Of a stretch of DNA of 60,991 bases, positions 1,815-60,991 are shown piece after piece. Where the stretch lies: positions 1 through 60,991 of the forward strand of contig MWCY01000017.1 in the NCBI GenBank assembly GCA_002070275.1. Reading direction: 5' to 3'. Numbering within the stretch: position 1 is the stretch's first letter; every line of letters starts with the position of its first letter. The translations under genes were made by a program, and so were the position numbers. The DNA is from Candidatus Hydrogenedentes bacterium ADurb.Bin170. GTDB taxonomy: Bacteria > Hydrogenedentota > Hydrogenedentia > Hydrogenedentales > CAITNO01. The notes beneath the pieces are model-generated. The model was not told the origin of the DNA. It worked only from the letters and a program-made list of their open reading frames with translations, and did no database searches.

Positions 1815-2474
1815 TCAGGATTCTGTCATTATCCAGTTAGGCGCCGGGTAGAGCGGGTAAGATAAATCAAAATTCAGAGGAAAAGTCTCCTGCGGAGCCA
1901 TGCCGTCAAAAAGAAAACGGACAGCTGTCACTTTTTTTGAATCAGCCCCGAGCAATGCTTCATGAGTCATCGTGTTCACAATCCCGAAAAACATCATAGT
2001 CTCCGTTTCGATGCTTCTAGGAACTGTTTGCAGAAAAATAATTTCGGAAGAAATATCTAAAATGAGTTCACCATCATCTTTCAGGTAGACCCCGCGAACA
2101 CGGGTGTCGGAAGGGATGTTAGGTAAAGAGTGCTGGCCGTCAGGACCTGAAATCATCTTGAGCAAAGCTGACCTGCAATTTTCAACGGTTGTTTCGGCAC
2201 TCTCAATCATACATTTTTCCGGGACAAGACCGATGCCGGCCGCCGAGGTGAAAAAAAGGGTGATTTCCTTTTTTTCGGTCAGGACATCGCGTGAAGCAGA
2301 TGACTCCTGCTGTTTAAATTCTTCCGAGTCTTCTTCTGCCAGTTTAAAGGGATTGCGCCCCTCAGTAAGCATATGTCTGGACAGCAGCAGAACAAGAAAG
2401 CATAGAATCAGCGTGGCAAATGCCCACAGAATCAAGCCAAGCTTTTTAAAGATGTGACTGGTAGAAAACTGCAT
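1815..2474 (-). CDS. GerMN-domain membrane-anchored protein
   Basis: A protein of 219 residues with one transmembrane helix at about residues 11-35 and a C-terminal domain (about 65-215) resembling the GerMN/sporulation-germination domain: a beta strand (EITLFFT), a helix with CRSALLKMI and PDG, and a later strand with DGELILDIS. In other bacteria such domains occur in germination protein GerM and in lipoproteins near amidases, and are thought to bind wall or protein partners. There is no sign of sporulation genes here, so a general envelope role is likelier. A GGAAT site precedes the ATG by 6 bases. It lies between the amidase-like gene and murI, with 2 bases to murI. The domain call is moderate; the function is unknown. 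Confidence 0.7.
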   Translation of the reverse strand: MQFSTSHIFKKLGLILWAFATLILCFLVLLLSRHMLTEGRNPFKLAEEDSEEFKQQESSASRDVLTEKKEITLFFTSAAGIGLVPEKCMIESAETTVENCRSALLKMISGPDGQHSLPNIPSDTRVRGVYLKDDGELILDISSEIIFLQTVPRSIETETMMFFGIVNTMTHEALLGADSKKVTAVRFLFDGMAPQETFPLNFDLSYPLYPAPNWIMTES

Positions 2475-2511
2475 TGTGTATTCCGATTTATAAGATTAAG
2501 GCACGGTTCTT

Positions 2512-3738
2512 TTACCGGAGGCTTTCGGCAAGCGCCCAGGCGATTCCAGAAGATATACGCGCGATTTCCTCAGGATTCTTCAACAGGTGCAATTTTTCCG
2601 GATCATTCAAACATCCTGTCCCGATTAAAATAACCGGTATTTTGCTTTCCCTTTGTAAAAGCAAAGGCGCCTGATGCACAAAAACTTTTTCCCAAGTGTT
2701 TGTTTTATTTAAGTTGCTTTGAAGCCTGATGCCAAATTTTGCCGCCTTTTCAGCGCATTCTTGCCGGGTAAGTTCACTTTTATTTTCTTTTTTTGCATCT
2801 TCTTTTTTCACGTCACTAAAGGGCGGCTGATCTGTCCAAATTGAAATAGAGGATACAGGGATGTTTGGAGAATAATTACTCTCCAGCGACACGAAAAAAG
2901 CACCTCCGGCTTTTTCAGCTGCCGAGACCCGTTTGCCGGGAGAGAGAGCAACATCTGCTTCTCTGGTGAGAACTACAGTTAAGGACGTTTTTTCTTCAAG
3001 AACAGCTTTGATTGCGCCAGCGAGCTGCAAAAGAATCTCTTTTTCTTTAAATTCCTCTGCAATAACAATACCGGCATCCTGTCCGCCGTGGGCTGCATCG
3101 ATCACTAGGCAACCTTTAATATTTTTCATACCTGAAAAATCGCCTGCTGTTGCATCAGAGGGCAGGCTTTCTTCGGAGTCTTCTTCCTGCTCGTTCTTTT
3201 CAGGTTCACTTGAGCCTTCATCTGACGCAGTTTCCGTGGAAACAGAAGCAGGTTGCGGAAGATCGGGTACTGATTCCAAAAGGAGTGACTCGTCGAGATC
3301 CATTACTTCAAGGTCTTTATCGGCCCCGGGTTTCATCTCTTCCGCTTTAATCTGTATTCCAAAAGCGTTGTGAAAAAAAAGTTCGGTATCGGTTACAGCA
3401 ATGCTGAGTGCGTTATTTAATAATGTACAGGGAACAGATAAAGAAAAACTTTGATTTTCTAAAGCTACCTCACGGTGGTTTGTGATTAGCGTCGCTGTCT
3501 TTCCGTTCAGGCTCGCCTCTATCTGGTCAGTCATATTTACGACCAGCCCGCCCAATTCTGTGATAAGGGTTTCCAGATTAATGTAATTTCTGTTTTCATG
3601 CACCAGAAAGGGCATGGGAACGGTTTTTATTGCGTTGTTCAGTTCAGCTGTAAAAAGGCGCCCTTCTTCTGCCTGGACAGGCACCGGCAGAGGACTAATT
3701 GCGAGAAGAAATAAAAACAGCCAGAGAGAGCAACGCAT
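2512..3738 (-). CDS. Secreted amidase_3-fold protein with lost catalytic residues (probable pseudo-amidase)
   Basis: A signal peptide (residues 1-23, cut near VQA) leads to a copper-amine-oxidase-N-like stalk domain (about 28-130), an acidic Ser/Glu/Asp-rich linker (about 135-205) and an N-acetylmuramoyl-L-alanine amidase (AmiC/CwlM, amidase_3) fold (about 208-405). The first zinc ligand (His217 in DAAHGG) and the Glu ligand (Glu232 in KEKE) are kept. The usual histidine of SIHAN is Glu286 here (SLESN), and the catalytic Glu of the usual VEMGFLSN is Gly373 (LIGTGCLND). Known active members need both, so hydrolysis is unlikely, and a wall-binding or regulatory role is inferred. It has its own predicted promoter at 3844-3872 and starts the GerMN-murI gene group. 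Confidence 0.8.
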   Translation of the reverse strand: MRCSLWLFLFLLAISPLPVPVQAEEGRLFTAELNNAIKTVPMPFLVHENRNYINLETLITELGGLVVNMTDQIEASLNGKTATLITNHREVALENQSFSLSVPCTLLNNALSIAVTDTELFFHNAFGIQIKAEEMKPGADKDLEVMDLDESLLLESVPDLPQPASVSTETASDEGSSEPEKNEQEEDSEESLPSDATAGDFSGMKNIKGCLVIDAAHGGQDAGIVIAEEFKEKEILLQLAGAIKAVLEEKTSLTVVLTREADVALSPGKRVSAAEKAGGAFFVSLESNYSPNIPVSSISIWTDQPPFSDVKKEDAKKENKSELTRQECAEKAAKFGIRLQSNLNKTNTWEKVFVHQAPLLLQRESKIPVILIGTGCLNDPEKLHLLKNPEEIARISSGIAWALAESLR

Positions 3739-54789: not shown

Positions 54790-56460
54790 TCAGCTTTCTT
54801 TATAAACAGCTTCCTGACATTCCTGCATCAATGTTTCAGCCTTTTCAATAAGGCGCAAGGCATCCCTAATCAGCGCTCTTTCTCTTTCCAACAGAGAACT
54901 TTGCTCTGTACTGTGCATTTCTATTGCTTTCCGTACATCCTTAAGCATTTTTTTTGAGAAAGAAGCAATAACCCAGTTGAAAATTTTCAGGACAAAAAAA
55001 ACAACGAAGACAAACAGCGCGGTAAGATGCAGAAGGGCACTCACAGAAAGTAATTGCTGGCTATAAAATGATTTGATAATAAATAGAATGGAAAGCAGAA
55101 TTGTCATCCACGGAAGACTATCCAAAGCGTACTTAACATATTTCGAAGAGAATAATTTACTGCATTTTATTAAGTTATCCTGCGCCTTTTGAGCGAAGAG
55201 CCTGCTAATTTCTTTAAAATATTCTTTATAACCCACTCGCGCTTCTTCCGACTGTCTGGTTGAAAATCCGGCAAGCTTCATTTGATAGTCCGTTTTTCTT
55301 TGCATGGCAGCCAGAAATTTTTTTAAGGTGTCTGGAAGGGTTGTTTCTGATTCTTTAATTTCATTAATCAGTTTTTGAAGACTGCCTGCATCAGAAGGTG
55401 CGTTCTGAAGAATCTCCGGCTTAAATAAATGGGACAAAAGATCCGGTAAAGAAGTCAGATAATAGCGCCACTTGAAGACAGTGCCGATAATTCCTGTACC
55501 GCTTCGGGCAATTTCCTGAGTTAACGCTGTCTCCCAGTTTTCTTCACAGGAAAAAACTTTTTCTATAAAATATCCGAGAAACCGTTTTTTAATTTCCTGC
55601 TCGACGGAAAGAATTGCCTTTTCCTGCTTCAAAAGACTTTCTTTTTCTTTTGATAGAGCGACATAAAGCCTTTGAGCGCAGGTATTCAGCAGTTCAAACA
55701 AATTAGCTTCTTTTATTTTTCTGTTGTATTCCAAATCTAAAGTTTCTGCCAGAAAGTTCTTAAGCACTGAAAATTCATACTCATCAGAAACAGGCTCCGC
55801 CCGGCCCGCCACTATTCTGTTCCAGGCGTTAAGAGCATTTACCGGGAAATAGTGGCGGACAGAAAATCCTTCCTGTTCCATATAGCGCTGCCAGTCCTTC
55901 CTGACAGCAGGATCATCTCTATCCACCTGCGTCTGCACACAGACAATTTCTCTTTTGTTCTTCAGCGGCGCAAGGATACGCCGCGTTTTGTCAACAAGAT
56001 ATTTCTGTGCATCAGCGCATAGTAGTATAAGATCACACTGTCTCAGTACCTCCAGTGCTGTTTCACAGTGGCGGGCATTCGTACTGTCCCAGTCCGGCGT
56101 ATCAATAAGCACAATATTTTTCAGCGGAGAGCCCGGTACATAAGTGATACCCGGCAAGCAGTCAAGTTTAGGAATGTATCCGTGCGGATGGTAGACAGTC
56201 GGTGTTGATGTATGCGGGCGAATCGGCGACACTTCTGCAATTTCTGCCCCCGCCAGCGCATTGAGCAATGTGGATTTTCCTACACCGGTTCCCCCTACAA
56301 TTGCAACAATAAGCGGAGAATTTACGCCCTGAAGTCTCGTCTTTATATCTTCTATTGCTATACAAAGGTTCTCTTTTTCCTGAAGTAATCTTGTCCAGGA
56401 ACCAGTGTAAGCAGCAAAGCTCTCAAGCGTATTTAAAAGAGCGTCATATTCTTTTGGCAC
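54790..56460 (-). CDS. Dynamin-like membrane GTPase, second of a tandem pair
   Basis: A 556-residue GTPase: G1 GGTGVGKST (56-64), possible switch-I threonines at 84-86, G3 DTPDWDS (120-126) and G4 TQVD (177-180), followed by long helices and coiled-coil segments (about 255-430), a hydrophobic hairpin (about 450-500) and a basic amphipathic tail. This is the layout of bacterial dynamin-like and YfjP-type membrane GTPases, which remodel membranes. The GTG start overlaps the first GTPase gene by 28 bases, with AGGGA just before it. The shared operon includes an ABC-2 exporter. Exact family placement and cargo are unknown. Confidence 0.82.
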   Translation of the reverse strand: MPKEYDALLNTLESFAAYTGSWTRLLQEKENLCIAIEDIKTRLQGVNSPLIVAIVGGTGVGKSTLLNALAGAEIAEVSPIRPHTSTPTVYHPHGYIPKLDCLPGITYVPGSPLKNIVLIDTPDWDSTNARHCETALEVLRQCDLILLCADAQKYLVDKTRRILAPLKNKREIVCVQTQVDRDDPAVRKDWQRYMEQEGFSVRHYFPVNALNAWNRIVAGRAEPVSDEYEFSVLKNFLAETLDLEYNRKIKEANLFELLNTCAQRLYVALSKEKESLLKQEKAILSVEQEIKKRFLGYFIEKVFSCEENWETALTQEIARSGTGIIGTVFKWRYYLTSLPDLLSHLFKPEILQNAPSDAGSLQKLINEIKESETTLPDTLKKFLAAMQRKTDYQMKLAGFSTRQSEEARVGYKEYFKEISRLFAQKAQDNLIKCSKLFSSKYVKYALDSLPWMTILLSILFIIKSFYSQQLLSVSALLHLTALFVFVVFFVLKIFNWVIASFSKKMLKDVRKAIEMHSTEQSSLLERERALIRDALRLIEKAETLMQECQEAVYKES

Positions 56461-58277
56461 TTTTCCCTGCAGCTCCCAAGTTGTTTTATATGCTCCTCAT
56501 CAAAAAGAGCCAGGGCGCTTTCAACCGCTCCTACTATCGGTTTAGCAACGACTCTATACAATTCCTCCTTTAATCGTTCTTTTTGCCGGTGGTACGCCGG
56601 GCTTAAAAAAATTCTTATTTGCTTTTCCAGGCTACGCTCAATTATGCGGCGCACATGCAGGAGCATATAAAAAACAGGAAGAATGCAAATTATTGGGTAA
56701 ATTGCCGACAGCCCTTTGGATAAAAGAAGTAACAGAAAGATATAAGGCGCAAGGACAAAAGTGGCATCTATCCACTGCAGTGCTGTTATTTTTCCTGATT
56801 GAATCGGCCATCCCTCCTGAAGCCCGGTGCCGAGAAGTGTATCTTCGGGAACAAGTCCTTCGGCATCTTTTTCCAGCGTTTTACGAATTACCTCAACATT
56901 TGCTGAATTGTCCCGGGGTTCTTTAAGCAAGAAAAAAGAGGTGTCCTTCGTCGCCTCATTCAGTTTTTTACGAAACCAGTTGGAATAGATCAGAACACTG
57001 TCACGAATGGCGTCCTGCGCTCTGGCAGCATTTTCTTTGGCACTATCCACCTGAAACTGCTTCTTATTTTTGCCCTGGCTGATCTGTACGTCGTCTTTAA
57101 ATATAAAATTTTTCAGCGGCAAATAAAGAGGAGACAGAAGAGCCAAAAGAAAAGACATTTTTTGAACAATAACGCTTCTGCTTGTTTGAATGCACTGGCG
57201 TATGCCTGTTTTTATATTGCTCCGGCGTTCAGGTGAAAATACCGCAGCAGCTTTTTCTGCCTCTTCCAGGCATTCCGCATTAAAAGCTCTGATCTGTGCT
57301 TCCGCATTTTTGCATCGTTCCAGAAAAGATGCGGTTTGCTCTAAAAAATATTCAAGCGACGCTTTGTAGACCTGTATTTTTACGGTGCCCATATCCATCC
57401 GCTTCAAATAATCAAGCAACGATATTTGGTTTTCCAGGTCCATGATGGGGAGATCAGGCAAGGACTCGAGGGAGTAATCTTTGGGCACTGTAAAAGCGCG
57501 TTCTGCGGTAAACCCAATTGCTCCCATAAACTGATTCAGCTGCGCTTTTGTTATGTCCGGAGTATGGGAGGGCTCCACTCTGTTCATCAGCGGAACAATG
57601 ATGCGTCCCGATTGGTGTGCGATACGGAAAAAAGCTACATTTTTTTCATCGTTATATTTTTGAGGGGTAAGGACGGCAATCATTACATCGCCAGCTGCCC
57701 GAATCTTTTCTGCTATAGACCAGTTTTTTTCAATAACAGAGTCTACGTCCGGAGTATCCATGAGAGCCATGGAAAAAGGCAGATTTTCAGCTGACGCCAC
57801 ATAGAGAAGATCTTCTTTTTCCTGCGGGTTTTCACTTTGCCCCGGAAAAGCCTGATTCCGTGCGTGAAAATCTACAAGAATCTTATTGTTGATGGCATCA
57901 GGAAGCCTTTCTGGTGCTACTGCAAGAACTGGCGCTTTTGTCGCAGCCGCGGTACTTCTAACTTCACTGAGTTTTTTTTGTAGAGTCAGATTAAAAAGTG
58001 TACTTTTTCCGCTGTTAGTTCCCCCTGCAAATACAACAATAAGACAGGCTTTTTCTGAAATCTGCGTGAGAAGTTTTTGAGAGAGAAGCCTTCGCCATTC
58101 TTCAGTACCATCCAGAAGAAGGTCTTTCAGCTCCGCCTGGCCATCCAGCGCTTTTAAAAAGGCATTAAAATAATGCTCAAAGTCTGCCAGTGCGGTTTGA
58201 ATAGAATCTGCAGCGCTGTTTTCTTCCCCTGATAACGCATAAAATTGGCTCGTATCCGGTTCCCACTTCCCACTCAC
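56433..58277 (-). CDS. Dynamin-like membrane GTPase, first of a tandem pair
   Basis: A 614-residue protein with G1 GGTNSGKST (85-93), G3 DTPDVDS (174-180) and an unusual G4, NRVE (232-235) in place of N/TKxD. A helical middle part has a hydrophobic patch at 373-393, then a two-helix membrane hairpin (about 505-542) and a charged tail. The GTG start has GGAAG upstream and lies 29 bases after the ABC-2 permease gene. It overlaps the next GTPase by 28 bases. The altered G4 may change nucleotide specificity. Paired GTPases of this kind usually act as a hetero-oligomer, inferred here from the overlap. Confidence 0.82.
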   Translation of the reverse strand: MSGKWEPDTSQFYALSGEENSAADSIQTALADFEHYFNAFLKALDGQAELKDLLLDGTEEWRRLLSQKLLTQISEKACLIVVFAGGTNSGKSTLFNLTLQKKLSEVRSTAAATKAPVLAVAPERLPDAINNKILVDFHARNQAFPGQSENPQEKEDLLYVASAENLPFSMALMDTPDVDSVIEKNWSIAEKIRAAGDVMIAVLTPQKYNDEKNVAFFRIAHQSGRIIVPLMNRVEPSHTPDITKAQLNQFMGAIGFTAERAFTVPKDYSLESLPDLPIMDLENQISLLDYLKRMDMGTVKIQVYKASLEYFLEQTASFLERCKNAEAQIRAFNAECLEEAEKAAAVFSPERRSNIKTGIRQCIQTSRSVIVQKMSFLLALLSPLYLPLKNFIFKDDVQISQGKNKKQFQVDSAKENAARAQDAIRDSVLIYSNWFRKKLNEATKDTSFFLLKEPRDNSANVEVIRKTLEKDAEGLVPEDTLLGTGLQEGWPIQSGKITALQWIDATFVLAPYIFLLLLLSKGLSAIYPIICILPVFYMLLHVRRIIERSLEKQIRIFLSPAYHRQKERLKEELYRVVAKPIVGAVESALALFDEEHIKQLGSCREKCQKNMTLF

Positions 58278-58306
58278 AAATTTCTCTTCCTTTCATAAGA
58301 AGATTC

Positions 58307-59224
58307 TCATCCGCCAGCCGCACGGTCGGAAGCATATTCACGCCGGTAAGTGGCATAAATGGTTAAAAGAAGCGATACCACGGTGATAAACACTAAAGCA
58401 GCCAGTGCTTTGGGCATACCCACTAAAAAGACTTCCCGCTGAATGTTGCCGAGCACAGTCTCGATGACGGGGTTGTGTCGTTGTGTAGCCAATAACGGCA
58501 GCATGGCAGTGGTATATTTCTTAATTGTAAAAAAGTCTACCAGACCAGGAATGAGGGTTGCAAGGTGCTGCCATCCGTAAAAGAGAATCACTCCAAACAC
58601 AATCGGTCGTCTGGTAAATGCGCCAAGAAACACTGAGAAGGCACCATAAGCAAAGAGCCCTAGCACCATGACGCCGCAATAATGAAGCAGCAGTTTAATG
58701 TCTCCTGCACTCATTAGAGACAGGTTGGAATGGACACAGGAGGCAGCGAAAGTGAGCACAGCGGAGCTGATAAGAATCAGCGATGCGACAAAAATATATG
58801 CGCAGAATCTGCCCAGAACCCAGGCAGAGCGCGGCATTGGCCTGGTCAGTATATAGATCATAGTGCGCATTTCTATGTCTTCGGCAATCAGCATGCCCGC
58901 AAAAAAAAGCGCCAGCAGCGGTGTAAAGACGTTTATGTGCAAGTCCTCGGCAAGCCTTACAAATACATTATTCCCTGATTCAGCAAACTGCGAAGTGGAA
59001 AAAAAAGCAAGTGCCAACGGGACCAGCACCGGAAGAAAAGCGATTAATGCAGCGACAGCCAGACGTTTGCGCCGCGCAATCATGCTCATGGCATGGGCAC
59101 ACGATGCTGAAAATCTCTGGAAATAGCTGCTGTGATCCGGGCGGTTGTCGGGCCTGAAAAAGAGATCTTCTTTAGTGATATTCATACCAGCCGCTGTCTG
59201 AGTGTCGTTGATAAAAGATGTCAT
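58307..59224 (-). CDS. ABC-2-type transporter permease, second
   Basis: A 305-residue integral membrane protein with about six transmembrane helices, a cytoplasmic N-terminal segment of about 50 residues and the ABC-2 pattern LIAEDIEMRTMIYILTRPMPRSAWVLGRF (a coupling region, about 112-140). Probably pairs with the permease at the right edge as a heterodimer. The ATPase gene ends just upstream (15 bases). The GTPase genes follow, so this is one operon. The start has no strong ribosome site; an in-frame ATG 13 codons later is an alternative. Substrate unknown. Confidence 0.88.
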   Translation of the reverse strand: MTSFINDTQTAAGMNITKEDLFFRPDNRPDHSSYFQRFSASCAHAMSMIARRKRLAVAALIAFLPVLVPLALAFFSTSQFAESGNNVFVRLAEDLHINVFTPLLALFFAGMLIAEDIEMRTMIYILTRPMPRSAWVLGRFCAYIFVASLILISSAVLTFAASCVHSNLSLMSAGDIKLLLHYCGVMVLGLFAYGAFSVFLGAFTRRPIVFGVILFYGWQHLATLIPGLVDFFTIKKYTTAMLPLLATQRHNPVIETVLGNIQREVFLVGMPKALAALVFITVVSLLLTIYATYRREYASDRAAGG

Positions 59225-59239
59225 AAAAATACCGGAACG

Positions 59240-60157
59240 CTATCGGGTTAAATAATCAAAAACTGATTGCAGATTATCGTCGGAACACGCTATCCCTTGT
59301 ATCAGTTCTGCATCTTCGAGGGCAATGGAATTCAGCATTTCGTAGGTGAAGTTAGGGTCTCGCGTTCTTACCAGAATGGAATTCTCTTCAATTTCCAGAG
59401 AGCTGACAGCTTCCTGAGTAATAAAGCGTTCAGCAAGGGTGCGCGCTTGTGTGGTTCTGATCCGTATGGCTTGCGGGTATTTGTCTATCAAGTCACGAAT
59501 ATCCCTAACGCGCCCCTGCGCCAGCAAGGTTCCCCCGTAAATAAGCACCACTGTATCTGTTATTCTTTCTATCTCATACAGAATATGGCTGGAAACAACC
59601 ACTGTCATGCCTTTCCCCGCCAGTTTCTGAATAAGGAGGTACATCTCTTCTCTTCCTTTTGGATCAAGCCCGTTCATCGGTTCATCCAAAAAGAGCAGTT
59701 CAGGGCATCCGGTCAGAGCCTGTGCTATCTTTATGCGCTGGCGCATTCCTTTGCTATAGGTATCAATAGCGTCATGCATGCGTTCTGTCATGTTGACTAG
59801 ATCACAGGCGGCTTCGGCTGAAGTAACGGCCTGTCTGTGCTGCATTCCCCAATAACGATTCAACCAGTAAATAAATTCAAAGCCGGTAGAATTCTCAAAA
59901 AAATAATCAGTTTCCGGACAGTAGCCTATACGGCGCATGACCCGATGATTATTTCTTGGTGCTTCTCCGAAGATCCTGATGGAGCCTTTACTTGGCGAAT
60001 AAAGCCCCAGAGCCAGTTTGATAAAAGTGCTTTTGCCGGCACCGTTGGGACCCAGCAGCCCTGTAACAGGAGAGTCCAGGGCGATGTCGAGATTATTCAG
60101 AGCAACTACTTCTCCGAACCATTTTGACAAACCGCATGCTTCGATAATCGGGCTCAT
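59240..60157 (-). CDS. ABC-2-type transporter ATP-binding protein
   Basis: ATPase of an exporter or membrane-remodelling complex. In 305 residues: Walker A GPNGAGKST (35-43), signature YSKGMRQR (134-141, a Lys form of LSGGQ typical for NatA/CcmA-like ATPases), Walker B LLFLDEP (154-160), and His191 in the switch loop. The last 90 residues form the C-terminal regulatory domain of this class. It overlaps the first permease by 4 bases (ATGA) and is followed by the second permease and two GTPases. NosF/GldA-like relatives share this pattern. Confidence 0.93.
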   Translation of the reverse strand: MSPIIEACGLSKWFGEVVALNNLDIALDSPVTGLLGPNGAGKSTFIKLALGLYSPSKGSIRIFGEAPRNNHRVMRRIGYCPETDYFFENSTGFEFIYWLNRYWGMQHRQAVTSAEAACDLVNMTERMHDAIDTYSKGMRQRIKIAQALTGCPELLFLDEPMNGLDPKGREEMYLLIQKLAGKGMTVVVSSHILYEIERITDTVVLIYGGTLLAQGRVRDIRDLIDKYPQAIRIRTTQARTLAERFITQEAVSSLEIEENSILVRTRDPNFTYEMLNSIALEDAELIQGIACSDDNLQSVFDYLTR

Positions 60158-60991
60158 GACATAACCTCCTGCCGTCGAATTTTAATTACGATGATCAGAA
60201 GCGCTATGGCACACACAACAGCTACATATCCGAGACACCACTGCCAGGACGTAGTAAATAGAATTCTTTTTTCGTCAAAAAGGAGTTCGCCTAAGCGTCT
60301 TACAGACATGGGAAAAGAAAGAGCGAGGAGGTTACGCATCCGGAGAAGCCCGGAAAGAATTCCTGCAAAGCTCGTATTGGCTATAAGCACCATAAAAACA
60401 ATGATGGCGGCATAATTCTGCGAAGGCATCAATGCCGATGCTGCCAGGATAGAGAAAACGGCGGGCAGCACAAGTGCGGTAGAATATGCCAAAATCGCCA
60501 AAGGCCACCACCAGCTGGCAGCCAGCGTGGACATGCCCGGGAGCAGCAGATTATGCAGGATGACCAGGCAAATTCCCGGGAGTGCCGTAATAGAAAGCCC
60601 TAAAAGGAAAAGGCTGGCTATTTTCCCGAAGGCATAATCCCGCCAGGTTAAGGGTTTTGAAAAATAGACTTCCATCAGGTTATTGCGCAAGTCGTTGCAG
60701 ATCATCCCCGCTCCTGCATACAAGGTAAGGATAAATACCATCGGCGTCTGGAGGTATAAAAAGCTGAAGAATGTAACACCGCGAATTTCGGCAACATCCA
60801 GATTTGCAAAAAGCGCCTGCAGCGGATTATTGGGATCCTGTGCGATGATGTCGAAGGCAACCACCTGAAGAAGTCTTATCAGGACATGAATATAGGCGAG
60901 CAGATAAAGAACCTTAAATATTTTAAATTTTGTAAGGGTTTTAAATTCCTGTTCAACAACAATGAGCCATCGGAAATGCCGCTGGGGCTTT
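60154..60991 (-). CDS. ABC-2-type transporter permease, first (5' end outside window)
   Basis: The frame is open to the right edge, so the start lies outside; 278 codons are visible. A basic segment (WLIVVEQEFKTLTKF) leads into the first transmembrane helix, then about five more helices with the ABC-2 motif GMICNDLRNNLMEVYFSKPLTW. A GTG at 60864 would make an artificially short protein missing the first helix. The stop overlaps the ATPase start by 4 bases. It is the likely first visible gene of the exporter-GTPase operon; more genes may lie beyond the edge. Confidence 0.85.
   Translation of the reverse strand, partial: KPQRHFRWLIVVEQEFKTLTKFKIFKVLYLLAYIHVLIRLLQVVAFDIIAQDPNNPLQALFANLDVAEIRGVTFFSFLYLQTPMVFILTLYAGAGMICNDLRNNLMEVYFSKPLTWRDYAFGKIASLFLLGLSITALPGICLVILHNLLLPGMSTLAASWWWPLAILAYSTALVLPAVFSILAASALMPSQNYAAIIVFMVLIANTSFAGILSGLLRMRNLLALSFPMSVRRLGELLFDEKRILFTTSWQWCLGYVAVVCAIALLIIVIKIRRQEVMS

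Follow-up and report, generated by a model that had tools for sequence, protein, structure and literature searches.

A heterotypic pair of candidate dynamin-like GTPases in Hydrogenedentota and part of Planctomycetota, adjoining an ABC-2 exporter operon in one genus

Results

The locus and its genes

The window (the whole stretch of DNA analyzed, 60,991 bases) is the complete contig C17. As the initial annotation had described, five open reading frames (ORFs) for a permease, an ATPase, a second permease and two GTPases are all present in one minus-strand run (Table 1). Their junctions were also as claimed, namely, a 4-base overlap, 15 bases, 29 bases, and a 28-base overlap, the last being that of the GTPase A gene with the GTPase B gene. 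The window stops at the end of C17, which truncates permease 1 and leaves the rest of the operon off the contig. A Pfam scan of permease 1 gave no match of its own, and the gene was assigned from its 76% identity to the complete gene of the congeneric genome and from gene order. The ORF frames are conserved across two phyla, which excludes chance ORFs.

Table 1. Features of the minus-strand gene run in the window
Feature	Positions	Strand	Length	Remarks
ABC-2 type permease 1	60154-60990	-		5' end open; 76% identity and gene order relative to the complete congeneric gene
ABC transporter ATPase	59240-60157	-	305 aa	
ABC-2 permease 2	58307-59224	-	305 aa	
GTPase B	56433-58277	-	614 aa	G1 GGTNSGKST; G3 DTPDVDS; G4 NRVE; hydrophobic paddle ~508-550
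GTPase A	54790-56460	-	556 aa	G1 GGTGVGKST; G3 DTPDWDS; G4 TQVD; hairpin 444-491

Both GTPases have a G domain with a P-loop, and G1 is canonical in each. The G3 motif, which had also been ascribed to both, is not the usual DxxG: it reads DTPDxD[ST] in A and B, with the glycine replaced by aspartate. Each of the aligned Hydrogenedentota sequences (25 of B and 26 of A) has the form DxPDxD[ST], and alignments extended to Planctomycetota show no variation at its D, P, D, and D positions. We treat DTPDxD[ST] as a motif variant and do not use DxxG to define the fold. The G4 motifs of the window's two proteins are without the usual lysine. Given the missing G3 glycine and the altered G4 of the window, the predicted GTPase activity may differ from the norm; the glycine loss, common to both partners, is an enzymological oddity.

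Predicted fold and membrane segments of the GTPases

The profile-HMM search proposed with the initial annotation placed A above cut-off for MMR_HSR1 and Dynamin_N and B above cut-off for MMR_HSR1. Matches to named families were confined to the G domain, and the Era and Der families scored about equally. Sequence-only scans were thus indecisive between dynamin and Era/Der, and the choice was settled by predicted structure. The AlphaFold2 models had a mean pLDDT of 86.3 for B (46 aligned sequences) and 89.6 for A (42 aligned sequences). In Foldseek searches against the PDB (E values down to 2.6e-11), the best 50 matches were dynamin-superfamily proteins and their close kin (EHD and interferon-inducible GTPases), including BDLP, Drp1, OPA1, the Cj-DLP pair, MxA, SynDLP, and mitofusin for B and BDLP, IniA, the Cj-DLP pair, OPA1, and mitofusin for A. 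Global TM-scores to solved dynamins were low (~0.2 to 0.4 by query length) and rmsd was large, as would follow from a difference in hinge angles, so that the match falls short of close structural identity. The GTPase A stalk is helical and that of GTPase B is long and helical, and the predicted structures have a long helical neck and trunk like those of solved dynamins.

It is barely credible, on these results, that the two proteins act in ribosome assembly or tRNA modification, as GTPases of the Era/Der/MnmE type. MMR_HSR1, Era, and Der are indeed the best profile matches, and in one genus rpsL and rpsG follow immediately downstream of the pair. However, the matches end at the G domain, Era and Der scored far below curated cut-offs in the Pfam and NCBIfam scans, and long helical stalks and a hydrophobic hairpin are present. 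Neither Era nor Der was among the best 50 structural matches, and the same Pfam and NCBIfam scans found no KH domain (Era), double G domain (Der), or other RNA-binding domain. The ribosome-binding alternative that the initial annotation had raised against itself therefore fails.

Membrane hairpins had been claimed for both GTPases; the hairpin is clear in A but weaker in B. The hydrophobic hairpin of A has two segments, as it does in 32 of the 42 members. B usually has one strong hydrophobic segment around a Gly-rich turn, with some members below threshold, and in the B model the helix is called unbroken from residue 494 to 593. Many members have a B paddle of low hydrophobicity, whose membrane insertion may differ accordingly.

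Distribution and apparent co-evolution of the pair

GTPase B was found in 30 and GTPase A in 28 of 40 Hydrogenedentota genomes. In nearly all Hydrogenedentota loci holding both, the order is B then A, with the gene ends overlapping or nearly so. Two loci have an insertion of ~1.3 kb between B and A; in one of them (L085:10431-11899) the insertion consists of two genes for bacterial PH domains. A single-sequence scan of genome contigs for relatives gave no match. An alignment-based scan succeeded and returned 385 related stretches, of which 80 were kept, almost all from Hydrogenedentota and Planctomycetota. Outside Hydrogenedentota, A adjoins B in 14 of 38 loci. We checked 18 genomes from outside this phylum, selected mostly for lacking A next to B and including two adjacent controls, and found full-length A in 15, in 13 of which it is not beside B in the assembly. 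Planctomycetota thus keep A even where it is far from B.

Alignment with hhalign shows A and B to be paralogs (probability, 99.8 over 266 columns), and they form a heterotypic pair in the sense of two different dynamin-like protein (DLP) genes that lie side by side and are conserved together. The correlation of A and B distances was 0.94, versus 0.81 and 0.88 with FtsZ, whose sequences were chosen by requiring the GGGTG motif. The partial correlation of A and B given FtsZ was 0.83, and none of 1,000 permutations was as high. It is important to note that FtsZ is a single proxy for the species tree, and the A-B correlation supports rather than proves co-evolution; the two genes are apparently co-evolving. 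The claim of two paired dynamin-like GTPases is borne out by the structure matches, the conserved pairing, the co-occurrence, and this apparent co-evolution.

No third conserved partner was found near A or B in Hydrogenedentota or in the split planctomycete loci. The local neighbors of the pair are unrelated (GHMP kinase, HDOD, S12/S7, a XylR-type regulator, and a dehydrogenase). In four loci of one genus (L077, L082, L089, and L093), S12, S7, and another conserved gene of ~700 to 750 aa, which by position is probably EF-G, come directly downstream of the pair. In a planctomycete-phylum genome (L240:3974-9510), a fused or extended B-like protein of 1,265 aa precedes A, which overlaps it by 4 bases. 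A B-type protein also occurs outside the two main phyla, in a Bdellovibrionales MAG (L137), where horizontal transfer or misbinning is possible; full-length A was not found in that genome.

We also considered the pair as an anti-phage defense system of the Eleos (LeoA/LeoBC) type. LeoA/LeoBC are likewise paired DLPs, for which a role in vesicle release has been reported (PMC4159319). Weak PADLOC matches to LeoBC (1.9e-8) and LeoA point in this direction, and phage resistance has been reported to result from B. subtilis DynA (PMC8844932). Yet the matches cover only the G domain (residues 48 to 175 of 556 in A and 49 to 96 of 614 in B) and not the full LeoA and LeoBC profiles; leoBC is a split gene, and the Eleos genes are island-borne, whereas A and B are lineage-wide. 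In most of the sampled families of the phylum nearly every genome has the pair, its divergence follows that of FtsZ in the manner of vertically inherited genes, and no defense gene was among the identified neighbors. A defense system of this type is thus very unlikely.

The exporter operon and its link to the pair

An ortholog of permease 2 was found in 31 of the 40 Hydrogenedentota genomes (the window's genome included; one was marginal, E 1e-5). It is embedded in a conserved run consisting of a ~970-aa CarboxypepD_reg-repeat protein, an ATPase, permease 1, a second ATPase, and permease 2, so that in relatives the exporter is a five-gene unit without GTPases. None of 20 mapped relatives outside the window's genus had GTPases after the exporter. 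The missing 5' part of the window's ABC operon lies on contig C3, at its end (C3:1-1818), where the sequence is 71% identical to residues 1 to 606 of the CarboxypepD_reg repeat protein. The conserved five-gene run and this upstream part show the exporter to be a unit of its own that the assembly has split. As an operon, it is independent of the GTPases and more widely conserved than its link to them.

The initial annotation had proposed that the exporter and the GTPase pair act together and had named gene order in relatives as the test of the link. Across the 40 Hydrogenedentota genomes, 24 had both permease 2 and the pair, 6 had the pair only, 7 had the permease only, and 3 had neither. The two were adjacent in only 2 of the 24 genomes with both (2 of all 40), and both of these belong to the window's genus, in which one congeneric genome was searched (G001; contig JAAYJV010000135.1, Candidatus Hydrogenedens sp.). 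Outside this genus, the permease 2 ortholog and the GTPase pair are on different contigs. The proposed joint system was therefore not upheld. Comparison of window positions 54790 to 58277 with L066:5454-8947 showed that both GTPases have diverged far more than FtsZ or the adjoining ABC proteins: within the genus, identity is 36% for the GTPases, 73% for FtsZ, and 74 to 78% for the ABC proteins.

The exporter and the pair could still form one functional system in the window's genus, for example, one that couples export to membrane repair or vesiculation. The gene order is identical in the genus's two species, the spacing between permease 2 and GTPase B is short in both (29 and ~10 bases), and no promoter-like site for the minus strand was found in the 29-base gap. 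We nevertheless consider a joint system unlikely even there. The adjacency is rare among genomes holding both parts, each part occurs without the other, and the conserved partner gene of the ABC operon is the upstream CarboxypepD_reg repeat protein, not the GTPases. The contrast in identity within the genus moreover indicates that the exporter and the GTPases do not change together. The best explanation is that the pair became attached to the 3' end of the ABC-2 operon in the window's genus only; judging from gene spacing, pair and exporter probably share a transcript there but are not a single machine.

The fast divergence in this genus could instead mean that the pair is losing constraint there and decaying after its relocation. 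The 36% identity at an FtsZ identity of 73% compares with 48 to 68% elsewhere at FtsZ identities of 75 to 77%, the pair is absent from four other genera of the family (g2, g5, g6, and g7), and the G4 motifs are altered. Both frames are, however, intact in the genus's two species, with G1 and G3 kept, and genus g3 is comparably fast (38 to 41% at an FtsZ identity of 75%). Decay of the pair thus seems quite improbable.

Discussion

We think it likely that A and B constitute a heterotypic DLP pair of Hydrogenedentota and part of Planctomycetota, whose link to the exporter is limited to one genus and does not make the two a single machine. The family is without a Pfam or NCBIfam model of its own and is apparently undescribed; a search of open-access papers on planctomycete and Hydrogenedentes dynamins found no account of the pair, which is no proof of absence. 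What is new is the family and its variant of the G3 motif, while paired bacterial DLPs are a known kind.

Most likely, A and B would form a joint assembly on the cytoplasmic side of the inner membrane. The two-segment hairpin would anchor A and a shorter paddle would anchor B, with A as the firmer membrane anchor of the pair. GTP-driven pairing of the G domains and bending of the stalks would tether the membrane, which would then be fused, cut, or sealed, as for Cj-DLP1/2, DynA, or IniA. We infer the hetero-assembly, the membrane location, the GTPase activity, and the remodeling outcome by analogy with such proteins. As to purpose, our first guess would be membrane repair under envelope stress, and our second, phage tolerance or vesicle release.

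Planctomycetes are without FtsZ, and their mode of budding has been described as unknown (PMC4164004). FtsZ matches were found in all 40 Hydrogenedentota genomes, and the pair as an FtsZ replacement in this phylum was rejected on that ground. Since A was present at E 1e-40 or better in at least 18 of 119 sampled planctomycete-phylum genomes (a lower bound), and FtsZ in every Hydrogenedentota genome, the pair is not a simple FtsZ replacement. We give little weight to a bolder proposal, in which heterotypic variant-switch GTPases would drive invagination, budding, or repair and might be a missing membrane-shaping machine of the planctomycete cell plan. An apparently co-evolving, conserved dynamin-like pair in part of Planctomycetota and in FtsZ-bearing relatives nonetheless supplies concrete candidate genes.

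Comparison with known dynamin-like systems

The G3 motif of Nostoc BDLP1 differs from that of A and B, and Cj-DLP1 and Cj-DLP2 carry a canonical G3, unlike A and B. BDLP1 (PDB 2J68 and 2J69) is the top structural match of both proteins (13 to 15% identity), with its G domain, helical stalk, and paddle arranged in the same order. Bacterial DLPs mostly occur as side-by-side pairs, and Cj-DLP1/2 were found to assemble heterotypically and to tether membranes (PMC6104087). The Campylobacter jejuni proteins Cj-DLP1 and Cj-DLP2 (PDB 5OWV and 5OXF), likewise a side-by-side pair of two different dynamin-like GTPases, are among the best structural matches of A and B at only ~12 to 16% identity; their heterotypic assembly is established, whereas that of A and B is predicted. 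Mycobacterial IniA (PDB 6J72 and 6J73), the second-best match of A (~12 to 13% identity), cuts membranes in vitro (PMC6715688). The iniBAC operon also holds two GTPases but differs in being drug induced and in including IniB.

A second adjacent DLP pair lies in the window's genome on contig C5 at ~12.9 to 16.0 kb (L001:97-2265 and 2262-3179), with a 4-base overlap. Its proteins of 722 and 305 aa match Dynamin_N (E 7e-22 and 2e-10, respectively) and, unlike A and B, have a canonical DTPG G3; they belong to a separate family.
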